Positions 25,398 through 34,833 of a stretch of 40,556 bases of DNA are shown here, piece by piece. The notes under the pieces were generated by a model. The model had not been told where the DNA came from. It was given only the letters and a program-made list of their open reading frames with translations, and did no database searches. The translations under genes were made by a program, and so were the position numbers. The stretch is from an uncultured Clostridia bacterium (lineage in GTDB: Bacteria; Bacillota; Clostridia; Christensenellales; Aristaeellaceae), in contig CALVVZ010000007.1 in NCBI GenBank assembly GCA_944364075.1, positions 1 to 40,556 of the forward strand. Direction: 5' to 3'. Positions within the stretch are counted from its first letter, which is position 1. Every line of letters starts with the position of its first letter.

Positions 25398-26654
25398 ATG
25401 GAAGAAAAGATTGCGGCGCTGATCGCTGCCGCGGAGGAAAGACTGGCGCCTGCTTTCAAACGCCTGGAAGCCATGGAGGAGCTCGGCACCCGGCGGGTGC
25501 TGGCTGCCTTCCAGGAACATCAGGTGGCTTACCGGCATTTCGCACCCACCACGGGATATGGTTACGACGACGTGGGGCGGGATACGCTGGAGAAAATATT
25601 TGCCTCCCTCTTTGGCACGGAGGCAGCCATTGTACGGCCGCATATTGCTTCTGGAACCCATGCCATTTCTCTGTGCCTGTTCGGGCTGACACTGCCGGGC
25701 GATCATATTCTTTCGGCGACGGGGAAGCCTTATGACACCCTGGAGGAGATCATCGGTATGGGGGATGGTCCGGCGCCGGTGGGCAGCCTGCGGGAAATGG
25801 GCGTGAGCTACAGTGACGTGCCCTTAAATGACCGTGGGGAGATTGACCTTGCGGCGGTGGAAGCGGCCATTCGCCCCAATACCCGGCTGGTCATTGCGCA
25901 ACGCAGCCGCGGGTATGCCTGGCGTCCATCCCTGATGCCGGAAGCTTTCGGCCCGCTGGCGGAGCTGCTGCATCGCAAATATCCGCACATTCGCCTGATG
26001 GTGGACAACTGCTACGGCGAGTTCGTGCGCGAAAAGGAGCCCAGCCATTACGGCGCGGACATCTGCGTGGGCAGCCTGATCAAGAACCCGGGCGGCGGAC
26101 TGGCGCCCACGGGCGGCTATATTGTTGGCAGGCAGGAGGCGGTGGAACGCATTGCCTACCGGTTGACGGCGCCGGGCATCGGCCTGGAGGTGGGCAGCTA
26201 CGCGGGCAGCTATCAGCCTTTTTACCAGGGGCTTTTCATGGCGCCACATACGGTATGTCAGGCGATCAAAACGGCCTGCCTGGCGGCGGCGGTGTTCGAA
26301 TCCCTGGGGATGACCACCACGCCCCCCGCCCTGGAGGAACGCGCGGACATCATTCAGGCCATTCAGATGAAAACGCCGGAGCGCCTGGTGGCCTTCTGCC
26401 AGGGAATTCAGCTGGCGTCGCCCATTGACAGCATGGCGTTGCCGGAGCCTTGGGCCATGCCCGGCTATCAGGATCAGGTGGTGATGGCCGCAGGCACTTT
26501 TGTGGCAGGCGCGTCCATTGAGCTGAGCGCCGACGCGCCCATGCGGGAACCTTACACTGCCTATATGCAGGGCGGACTGACCTATATCCATGGCCGCGTG
26601 GCGCTGGCCCGGGCGCTGGAGCGCATGGTATCTCAGGGCTGCCTGGAGATATAA
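25398..26654 (+). CDS. Aluminium-resistance / methionine gamma-lyase-like PLP enzyme (YnbB family)
   Basis: A 418-residue fold-type I PLP protein of the Alum_res family. Markers are HFAPTTGYGYDDVGRDTLE, RPHIASGTHAIS, DNCYGEF (the Asp contacting the pyridine nitrogen), and the probable PLP lysine K229 in SLIKNPGGG. The family name comes from an aluminium-tolerance phenotype; its members resemble methionine gamma-lyase, and the true substrate is not known. AAGGAG (25384-25389) supports ATG 25398, which leaves 2 nt after miaA. Linkage to miaA and mutL recurs in Firmicutes (ynbB). It ends this transcription unit. Confidence 0.9.
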   Translation: MEEKIAALIAAAEERLAPAFKRLEAMEELGTRRVLAAFQEHQVAYRHFAPTTGYGYDDVGRDTLEKIFASLFGTEAAIVRPHIASGTHAISLCLFGLTLPGDHILSATGKPYDTLEEIIGMGDGPAPVGSLREMGVSYSDVPLNDRGEIDLAAVEAAIRPNTRLVIAQRSRGYAWRPSLMPEAFGPLAELLHRKYPHIRLMVDNCYGEFVREKEPSHYGADICVGSLIKNPGGGLAPTGGYIVGRQEAVERIAYRLTAPGIGLEVGSYAGSYQPFYQGLFMAPHTVCQAIKTACLAAAVFESLGMTTTPPALEERADIIQAIQMKTPERLVAFCQGIQLASPIDSMALPEPWAMPGYQDQVVMAAGTFVAGASIELSADAPMREPYTAYMQGGLTYIHGRVALARALERMVSQGCLEI

Positions 26655-26656
26655 GC

Positions 26657-26879
26657 GCGTGGCTGTACAAGGCTGCGGCAGACTGTCAAAACCCCAGGGA
26701 GGTGTCGGAGGGGCCGCAGCCCCTCCGACTTTCATTCGTGTAAGCCGGCTTTGCGGGTCATTGATTTTGCTTGCAAAATCAATTCCTTACAACTTCGGAC
26801 GACCTTTGGCTGGCCGAGGTTGCTTCTCCTCAAAAAAGTGGCGCCGCCACTTTCTTGACACGCTGGCGTGGCTGTACAA
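26657..26879. repeat. 14-bp direct repeats flanking the intergenic element
   Basis: GCGTGGCTGTACAA occurs at 26657-26670 and again at 26866-26879, followed by GGC and AGC respectively. The pair brackets repeat copy 1 (26680-26860), starting 3 nt after the upstream gene's stop. It may be a target-site duplication or part of the element. Confidence 0.75.
26680..26860 (+). repeat. Intergenic hairpin repeat, copy 1
   Basis: This element shares its plan and much of its sequence with 34571-34758: AGAC, a C-run then AGGG, a perfect 11-bp hairpin (arms 26704-26714 and 26719-26729, loop CGCA), TTTCATTCGT, GGCTTTGC, a TTGCTTG-AAAATC segment and a terminal AAAAGTGGCG followed by GACA. Copy 1 also has TTGATTTTGC/GCAAAATCAA arms (26761-26782) and AAAGTGGC/GCCACTTT arms near 26836-26854. 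It sits at the end of a transcription unit and may act as a terminator. No open frame with a ribosome site is in it. Confidence 0.8.
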
Positions 26880-26901
26880 AGCCTCGGGATTGTTGTAAAA
26901 T
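26873..26901 (+). promoter_or_regulatory. Possible promoter of deoD
   Basis: TGTACA (26873-26878) and TAAAAT (26896-26901) are 17 bp apart, and the start codon lies 28 nt further on. The -35 falls inside the second 14-bp direct repeat. Confidence 0.55.
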
Positions 26902-32451: not shown

Positions 32452-32466
32452 TGGGAGGGCATGACG

Positions 32467-34533
32467 ATGAGTGAAGCAATGAAAAAAGATATTCCCGAAA
32501 TCGACTTTGAGAAGCGTGCGGAGCAGATACTGTCCAATGAGCCTATTCTGGCTGCCAAGGACGTGGAGGTGCAGTTCACCCTGCGCGGGCAGAAGCTGAC
32601 GGCCATCCGCAAGTGCTCCCTGGAGCTGTATGACGGCGAGACGCTGGCCATTGTGGGTGAGTCCGGTTCAGGCAAGAGCGTGTTCACCAAGTGCTTTGTG
32701 GGCATGCTGGACAAGAACGGTTCCATTACCCATGGTTCCATCATGTACCAGGGCCAGGATCTGACCAAGTTCACCACGGAAAAGGAATGGCGTACCATTC
32801 GCGGCAAGAAGATCGCCATGGTAACCCAGGACCCCATGACCAGCTTGAACCCCCTCAAGCGCATCGGCCGTCAAATACAGGAGGCCATTGAGCTGCATCA
32901 GGGCCTGAAGGGAAACGCCGCCAAGAAGGAAGCCATGCACATGCTGGAGCTGGTGGGCATTCCGAATCCGGAACGCCGCTATTATCAGTATCCCCATGAG
33001 TTTTCCGGCGGCATGCGTCAACGTGTGGTCATCGCCATTGCGGTGGCATGCCGGCCGCAGATACTGATTTGCGACGAGCCTACCACAGCGTTGGACGTGA
33101 CCATCCAGGCGCAGATTCTGGATCTGATCCGCAAGCTGCAAAAGGAACAGGGCATGACCATTATTTACATCACCCACGATCTGGGCGTGGTGGCCAACGT
33201 GGCCGACCGGGTAGCGGTGATGTATGCCGGACAGATTGTTGAAATCGGTATGGTCAACGAGATCTTCTTCGATTCCTGGCATCCGTACAGCTGGGCGCTG
33301 CTCAGCGCGCTGCCGCAGCTGGGCGTGAAGGGAGAGAAGCTCCCCGCCATCGACGGCACGCCGCCGAACCTGTTCAATAAGGTGGAAGGCGACGCCTTTG
33401 CGCCGCGCAACCGGAACGCGCTGACCATTGACTTTCTGGAAGAACCGCCGCTATTTGACGTGACGCCTACGCATCAGGCCAAGACCTGGATGATGGACCC
33501 GCGCGCTCCGGTGGTGGAGCAACCGGACACCATTCGCAAGCTGAGCCGTCAACATCTGGAGGGCCACCCGGTGGTGGATATTCCGCATCCGCACCTGGCG
33601 CCGGACCGTGAAGCGCTGATTGAGGTCAAGAATCTCCAGGTCGCCTTTGGCAATGGCCGGAGAAAATTCATTGCGGTGAACGATGTAAATTTCACCATTT
33701 ATCGCGGGGAGACTTTTGCGTTGGTGGGCGAGTCCGGTTCTGGCAAAACCACCATCGGACGAGCCATCGTGCGCATCAACCCTGTCTCGAAGGGTGAAAT
33801 CCTTTTCAAGGGACGCCGTATCTCCGGCAAAATTTCCAAGGCGCTGGACGAGGAAGTGATCCGCAGCTGCCAAATGATTTTCCAAGACCCCATGGCGTCT
33901 CTGAACGAGCGTGCAAAGGTGGATTACATCGTTTCCGAGGGCTTGCTGAACTTCCACATGTACAAGGACGAAGCGGACCGCCGGGCCAAGGTGCAAGGCG
34001 CACTGGACGAGGTAGGACTGCTGCCTGAGTTCTCCTCGCGCTTTCCTCATGAATTCTCCGGCGGACAGCGCCAGCGTATTGGTATTGCCCGCAGCCTGAT
34101 TATGAAGCCGGAGTTCATTGTGGCGGACGAGCCTATTTCGGCGCTGGACGTGTCCATCCGCGCCCAGGTGCTCAATCTGCTTAACGACCTGAAGCAGAAG
34201 CGTGGCTTGACGTATCTGTTCATCGCGCATGACTTGTCTGTGGTACGCTTTATTTCTGATCGTATTGCGGTCATTCATAAGGGGCAGATTGTGGAGCTGG
34301 CGGAGTCCGAGGAACTGTTCCTCCACCCGATGCATCCTTACACCCGGGCGCTGCTTTCTGCGGTGCCGAATCCCAACCCCTATCTGGAGCATGGAAAAAA
34401 GCTGCTGGTATATGATCCCTCCGTGCATGATTACAGCGTGGAGAAACCCACTTGGTGCGAGTTGCTGCCGGATCACTTCGTCTACGGCAACCAACGGGAG
34501 CTGGACGGATACCGGGAAGAATACTGCAAGTAA
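32467..34533 (+). CDS. Fused double ATP-binding protein of the peptide transporter (OppD-OppF type)
   Basis: A 688-residue protein with two complete ABC ATPase domains in tandem. Domain 1: Walker A GESGSGKS at 64-71, signature FSGGMRQR from 179, Walker [13 protein letters not shown]. Domain 2: Walker A GESGSGKT at 421-428, signature FSGGQRQR from 530, Walker [13 protein letters not shown]. Most Firmicutes encode these as separate OppD and OppF; fused forms such as E. coli YejF exist. The tail of domain 1, which in OppD-type subunits carries a conserved cysteine motif, keeps its frame but lacks the cysteines (D309 and N315 replace the first two). GGGAGGG (32453-32459) suits ATG 32467 better than ATG 32461. 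Confidence 0.92.
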
Positions 34534-34538
34534 AACAA

Positions 34539-34574
34539 GTCTGTGGGGCGTTCCGGTGGGGACGCCCCACAGAC
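34539..34574 (+). terminator. Hairpin ending the transporter operon
   Basis: GTCTGTGGGGCG (34539-34550) pairs perfectly with CGCCCCACAGAC (34563-34574) around a 12-nt loop, 6 nt after the stop codon. No T tract follows directly; the second hairpin in the repeat at 34597-34622 ends with TTTC and may assist. Confidence 0.75.
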
Positions 34575-34758
34575 GGTTACAACCCCCCAGGGGGATGCAG
34601 GAGAGGCTGCGGCCTCTCCTGCTTTCATTCGTATCTGGCGGCTTTGCCGGCGGTGCAGGCTGCTGGCCTTGCTTGAAAATCGATTCGTTATAAATTCAGA
34701 CTTCTGCTGTTTGATCGAATTCATTTCTCACAAAAGTGGCGTTACGATTTTTATGACA
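34571..34758 (+). repeat. Intergenic hairpin repeat, copy 2
   Basis: Same plan as 26680-26860. The perfect 11-bp hairpin has arms at 34597-34607 (GCAGGAGAGGC) and 34612-34622, loop TGCG, followed by TTTCATTCGT and GGCTTTGC. Three base pairs of the stem differ from copy 1 and all three are compensated. The distal part (AAAATC, AAAAGTGGCG, GACA) is recognisable but its secondary hairpins are lost. The rest of 34759-34833 holds no gene that I can support. Confidence 0.8.
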
Positions 34759-34833
34759 TGTGCAGGTATGAACTCTTCAACGCATCTTCCGGATTTTTTT
34801 GGCAGCCTGACGGGTGCAACTTTGCGCATCCCC

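Follow-up and report, generated by a model that had tools for sequence, protein, structure and literature searches.

A high-copy, structure-conserved MITE of gut Clostridia whose target duplications are DNA hairpins, with IS1182-family elements as its likely mobilizers

Results

Two copies of an intergenic repeat lie directly behind genes

The sequence analyzed here (the window) is a contig of 40,556 nucleotides (CALVVZ010000007.1, positions 1 to 40,556 of the forward strand) from a GC-rich metagenome-assembled genome (MAG) of an uncultured Clostridia bacterium (GCA_944364075.1; 271 contigs, 85% complete; the window is its contig C7), referred to below as G000, whose relatives are Christensenellales-type Clostridia. 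The window holds two copies of an intergenic repeat, termed element A, each located directly 3′ of a stop codon (ending at 26654 for copy 1 and at 34533 for copy 2). A deoD purine-nucleoside phosphorylase gene follows copy 1, and a fused oppD-oppF gene precedes copy 2, where a single 690-aa frame (32461–34533) carries OppD-like and OppF-like ATPases, i.e., a fused oligopeptide transporter ATPase. The features of the two copies, all on the forward strand, are as follows.

26657–26678, +, left copy of the duplicated target of copy 1, a decayed hairpin with a 7-bp stem (GCGTGGCTGTACAAGGCTGCGG), 2 bp past the stop codon at 26652–26654; direct repeat with 26866–26887
26679–26865, +, copy 1 of element A (187 bp; left end CAGACTGTCAAAAC, right end TTTCTTGACACGCTG), delimited by alignment with intact copies in the genome
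26697–26790, +, structured core P1-H1-H2-H3 of copy 1, with H2 shortened here (match to covariance model R1, 56.6 bits)
26704–26729, +, hairpin H1 of copy 1, GTCGGAGGGGC(CGCA)GCCCCTCCGAC, a perfect 11-bp stem (sequence; H1 covariation)
26760–26783, +, hairpin H3 of copy 1, ATTGATTTTGC..GCAAAATCAAT (sequence, RNA folding)
26790–26822, +, hairpin H4 of copy 1, CAACTTCGG...CCGAGGTTG (sequence, RNA folding, comparison of relatives)
26830–26858, +, hairpin H5 of copy 1, flanked by A/T, overlapping the right terminal repeat and terminator-like in both directions
26866–26887, +, right copy of the duplicated target, GCGTGGCTGTACAAAGCCTCGG (direct repeat)
34539–34574, +, strong hairpin GTCTGTGGGGCGT..ACGCCCCACAGAC between the OppD-OppF stop codon (34531–34533) and copy 2, its last bases overlapping the CAG of element A
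34570–34765, +, copy 2 of element A, older and decayed, ends approximate (alignment with copy 1, core pattern, model R1)
34590–34690, +, structured core of copy 2, matching model R1 at 36.6 bits (E ~1e-6)
34597–34622, +, hairpin H1 of copy 2, GCAGGAGAGGC(TGCG)GCCTCTCCTGC, a perfect 11-bp stem (sequence)

The two H1 stems differ at three positions, each compensated in the opposite arm (T-A/C-G, C-G/A-T, and G-C/A-T), and the blocks TTTCATTCGT, GGCTTTGC, and AAAAGTGGCG occur in the same order in both copies, exactly as an earlier note on this sequence had claimed. RNA folding z-scores for the two copies were −4.6 and −3.4. The 22-bp target duplication of copy 1 is identical at 19/22 positions. 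Copy 2 has a strong hairpin on its left, and no second copy of that hairpin was found to the right of it.

Element A is a high-copy nonautonomous MITE

Exact matches to the core pattern GCNNNNGCN{5,12}TTTCATTCGT gave at least 72 copies in G000, as compared to none for a reversed control pattern, bearing out genome-wide the contention that the resemblance of the two window copies is not due to chance; neither a family of only two copies nor a set of copies lacking the hairpin was what the genome contained. BLAST with copy 1 returned at least ~40 long matches at 79–92% identity (40 of 231 candidates scored). The intact element measures 187–198 bp (~196) in 23/28 two-sided copies and runs from CAG[AG]CTGTC[AG]AAAAA to TTTTT[CT]GACACGCTG, its ends forming imperfect terminal inverted repeats (CAG[AG]CTGTC[AG]AAAAA and CAGCGTGTC[AG]AAAAA; 2 mismatches in 15). 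The interior is gene-free and consists of five hairpins, H1–H5, in fixed order; H5 extends into the right terminal repeat, and its stem ends are rich in A and T, as in a bidirectional terminator. With terminal inverted repeats in the absence of a transposase gene, a target duplication, and autonomous relatives carrying the same type of end (described below), the window repeats are old copies of a nonautonomous miniature inverted-repeat transposable element (MITE).

The earlier note had instead suggested a family that is terminator-associated or like the repetitive extragenic palindromic (REP) elements, and proposed looking for a mobilizer such as a REP-associated tyrosine transposase (RAYT, of the Y1 type). 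REP elements and their mosaics (BIMEs) are likewise extragenic palindromic repeats of high copy number near gene ends. However, element A is two-ended and has both terminal inverted repeats and target duplications, features that REPs would not be expected to show; a search for Y1 (RAYT-type) transposases found none in G000 (85% complete) or in the carrier genomes G024, G025, and G030; and the autonomous relatives belong to the IS1182 family. Spread by a RAYT is thus extremely improbable, whereas the multicopy family, the association with terminators, and the keeping of hairpins by compensatory change, all part of the same proposal, hold.

One G000 contig (C166; L127, 6782 bp), both ends of which lie in element A, is a perfect self-palindrome and an assembly artefact; a 4.5-kb “transposon” on it was rejected for this reason. 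Numerous contigs in MAGs of this kind break at element A repeats.

Target duplications of element A are hairpins

In 19/28 copies with both flanks, element A was bordered by direct duplications of 16–43 bp, each of which is a hairpin over nearly its full length. Duplication scores ranged from 10 to 41, as compared to a maximum of 5 in 600 mispaired flank pairs. The duplicated hairpins are usually terminator-like: at L006, CCGCTATCCAAAGGATAGCGG stands on both sides of element A and is followed by ATCTTTTTT, the hairpin duplicated at L007 is AGCGGATGAGGGAAGCGCTTCCCTCATCCGCT, and that at L017 measures 41 bp. A hairpin with a stem of at least 9 bp abuts 48/74 left ends of element A, in contrast to 167/3000 random sites (a looser version of this test had a 22% background). 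Filled and empty sites could be compared through nesting, with a second repeat, family B, inserted inside H1 or H5 of element A and element A inserted in the hairpin at the 3′ end of an IS1182 remnant, the invaded hairpin being present on both sides of the insertion in each case. Around the same architecture in other genera, hairpin duplications scoring above the control (0/144) were detected in 8/49 related elements, and loci with such duplications include L197, L211, L216, L207, L156, and L282; the carrier MAGs are labeled Clostridia, Clostridiales, Christensenellaceae, or Candidatus Limiplasma. Two different hairpins flank one copy of element A (L008) and one IS1182 copy (L264), a pattern that recombination between copies at two sites would give. 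Family B of G000 (e.g., L070, L079, L083, and L093) is scattered, ~225 bp long, with ends CAGACTGTTGA[AC]AAA, and lies beside hairpins (stem of at least 9 bp at 19/31 left ends).

Element A sits mostly behind genes and sense to them. The upstream gene faces the H1 side in 50/67 copies (p = 7e-5), and divergent neighbors were seen in only 2/22 copies with both neighbor genes called; these counts are approximate, having been obtained with a home-made codon-usage caller, which was used because longest-ORF (open reading frame) calling is unreliable in the GC-rich G000. The association with terminators arises because the hairpin is the insertion target and becomes the duplication.

This arrangement raises the alternative that the target is recognized through transcription, with the transposase guided by terminator-paused RNA polymerase or by the nascent RNA hairpin. 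Most targets are indeed terminator-like and just behind genes, but hairpins within other elements (H1 and H5 of element A, and the end hairpin of IS1182) are also used, though these are possibly transcribed as well. Guidance by transcription is accordingly judged quite improbable.

IS1182-family insertion sequences are the likely helpers

In related genera, two IS1182 elements (L243 and L249) have ends, CAGCCTGTCAAAAAAGG, that are nearly those of element A, and so provide autonomous relatives of the MITE with matching ends. Others (including L259, L262, and L264) have ends CAGACC[AG]TC[AG]ACAAA and are hairpin-flanked. L243, L249, L255, and L259 each have one hairpin of 20–25 bp repeated on both sides; that of L243 is AAACCACCCGTCAAACGGGTGGTTT and that of L259 is AGGCGCTTCCCATGCGGAAGCGCCT. 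The transposases of these elements score 410–427 bits against NF033551 (cut-off 270) and match PF13751, PF05598, and PF01609. Those of the CAG type group apart from those of GGGGCTGT-ended IS1182 elements, around which no hairpin duplication was seen. The likeness of ends and of duplicated flanks makes CAG-ended IS1182 elements of related genera the likely mobilizers of element A. As nothing but fragments of a CAG-group transposase remain in G000, the helper is inferred from relatives.

Other candidates were rejected. GGGG-ended IS1182 elements lack hairpin duplications, and the IS1182 copies of G025 have different ends. The common sequence of the latter copies (L188–L191) ends in a hairpin, GGCGGTGCCGCAG...CTGCAACACCGCC; a similar hairpin follows the G000 fragments (L193–L195) and serves element A as a target at L106. 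An IS30-type helper resembling IS1630 was set aside as well, since few IS30 genes are present in the genomes checked and none has element A ends intact. The single IS30 gene of G000 is an IS1182/IS30 chimera, a 382-aa frame (L229, 687–1833, contig C8) with IS1182-type N-terminal and IS30-type C-terminal parts, apparently a fusion of two insertion sequences.

The interior of element A is a conserved, covarying fold

A covariance model (R1) of the closing helix P1 and hairpins H1–H3, built from 7 well-aligned sequences, recovered both window copies, with matches in 75/150 genomes and 32/50 genera sampled of the family. Standard pairs make up 93.9% of the pair cells of 53 distinct sequences, falling to 40–54% when partners are slid, and two-sided changes occur in 28/36 pairs (281 cells), a level reached by 0/500 shuffles; fitting the alignment to the model biases these numbers in its favor, but the margins are large. 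Three U-G pairs of the outer H2 helix are kept in 44–46 sequences, consistent with selection on one strand as RNA and arguing against simple correction of one arm by the other. These patterns suggest that the interior of element A is probably selected as RNA. By eye, H4 of relatives (e.g., L199, L208, L215, and L156) appears to keep an asymmetric internal loop, G.CC versus A, with GA/GA steps in one class, while its stems differ entirely between genera; the short covarying helices and kept internal loop resemble a folded RNA motif. Rfam gave no match at gathering score, and only weak ones elsewhere (E up to 1).

Compensated changes could also arise without structural selection. Quasi-palindrome correction, a well-established source of mutation in which one arm is copied onto the other by template switching, might act on H1, H3, H4, and H5, all of them local inverted repeats that are nearly perfect. 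However, the pairings of P1 and of the outer H2 are long-range, the three kept U-G pairs of H2 would have been made Watson-Crick, and the linkers and H4 internal loop are conserved while the stems change. As an explanation of the stem changes, such correction is decidedly unlikely.

A second alternative holds that the core is primarily a functional host RNA, such as a 3′ untranslated region (3′-UTR) or terminator module, that is only sometimes borne by a MITE. The breadth of the core across genomes and genera, its mostly sense orientation to the upstream gene in G000, and the lack of a hairpin duplication at most copies sampled elsewhere are in line with this. In contrast, hairpin duplications surround the same architecture in several other genera, copy number is high and varies between genera in a manner typical of mobile repeats, and duplications get lost in old copies. 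A primary host role is therefore considered unlikely. A related and equally tentative idea, improbable as it stands, is that element A bears a structured RNA of a new class, conserved in at least 32 genera, which either aids the spread of the element, e.g., through cooperation with the IS1182 transposase or by presenting decoy or target hairpins, or has been adopted by hosts as a portable 3′-UTR or terminator module.

Discussion

A hairpin-duplicating mode of insertion

The copy number, ends, hairpin-equal duplications, similar IS1182 elements, and covariation, as read from sequence, together make it quite probable that element A is a MITE mobilized in trans, by a DDE transposase of the IS1182 family with DNA hairpins, mostly intrinsic terminators, as its targets, such that the duplication is the hairpin itself and the interior is a conserved fold. 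In the proposed mechanism, the palindrome would be exposed as a cruciform or single-stranded hairpin, and the transposase would attach one element end to each strand, at either base of the hairpin, the simplest geometry that gives a duplication of palindrome length. Gap repair would then copy the whole palindrome, so that each duplication is a copy of the hairpin and differs in length from site to site as the hairpins do. Insertion just 3′ of a gene would spare the coding region and leave a hairpin on both sides; the gene-proximal copy would lose its T-tract and the distal copy would keep it, and H5 would add a further terminator-like hairpin. With the distal T-tract kept and H5 added, termination would probably be preserved.

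Several observations weigh against this account. Two copies (L010 and L018) have short, nonpalindromic duplications of 6–7 bp (ATTTTTT and ATTCTA), indicating that element A can also insert without a hairpin, and three others (L003, L008, and L015) have no duplication or two different hairpins. Only 8/49 related elements elsewhere show the hairpin duplication. The 60 relatives searched included no genome of the same genus in which the orthologous site could be seen empty. In G000 (85% complete), no CAG-type IS1182 was found intact, and the terminal inverted repeat of the fragments there, GGACCTGTTGACAAAA, differs from the exact ends of element A.

Relation to known systems

Hairpin targeting is already known from IS1272 and IS1630. 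The staphylococcal IS1272 and TnSha1, of the IS1182 family, insert into terminator hairpins or other inverted repeats with no primary-sequence preference, by blunt cuts that delete part of the hairpin and leave no target duplication (PMC4923244). Element A shares the transposase family and the hairpin targeting but differs in duplicating the whole hairpin instead of deleting part of it. IS1630 of Mycoplasma fermentans, of the IS30 family, duplicates inverted repeats according to the title of ref. 47 in PMC3317919, which gives duplications of 16–26 bp in M. fermentans M64. It has an IS30-type transposase and 27-bp ends, and neither a MITE nor a conserved RNA-like structure in its interior is described in that paper.

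The RUP, BOX, SPRITE, Correia, and ERIC MITEs are short, gene-free, high-copy intergenic elements with inverted-repeat ends, some of them terminator- or RNA-like (PMC10969869, a review of bacterial MITEs in which IS1182 is not mentioned). Element A shares their short, gene-free, high-copy intergenic form, but is unlike them in that the hairpin target is the duplication, the putative helper is of the IS1182 type, and the fold is conserved across many genera. Group IIC introns are retroelements that insert at intrinsic terminator hairpins, with a structured RNA and no target duplication; element A resembles them in site and structure, and no intron family was matched by Rfam here.

No earlier account of IS1182-type elements or MITEs that duplicate whole hairpins turned up in the literature searched, outside which lie most subscription journals, and the same literature held nothing relevant on structured RNAs in Clostridiales transposons. 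An IS1182 group that duplicates whole hairpins, accompanied by a MITE of high copy number and conserved structure, would be a variant of known hairpin targeting, and the internal fold is the more surprising part. The copies described here offer many natural cases in which the target duplication is a DNA hairpin, making testable both the attack of IS1182-type transposases on extruded cruciforms and landing in terminators without harm to the preceding gene. They also expose a widespread, uncatalogued, covarying structure family in Christensenellales-type gut Clostridia. At one further locus (L213), ~2.9 kb from its start, the structured element lies directly before the apparent start of a transfer-messenger RNA (tmRNA) gene.
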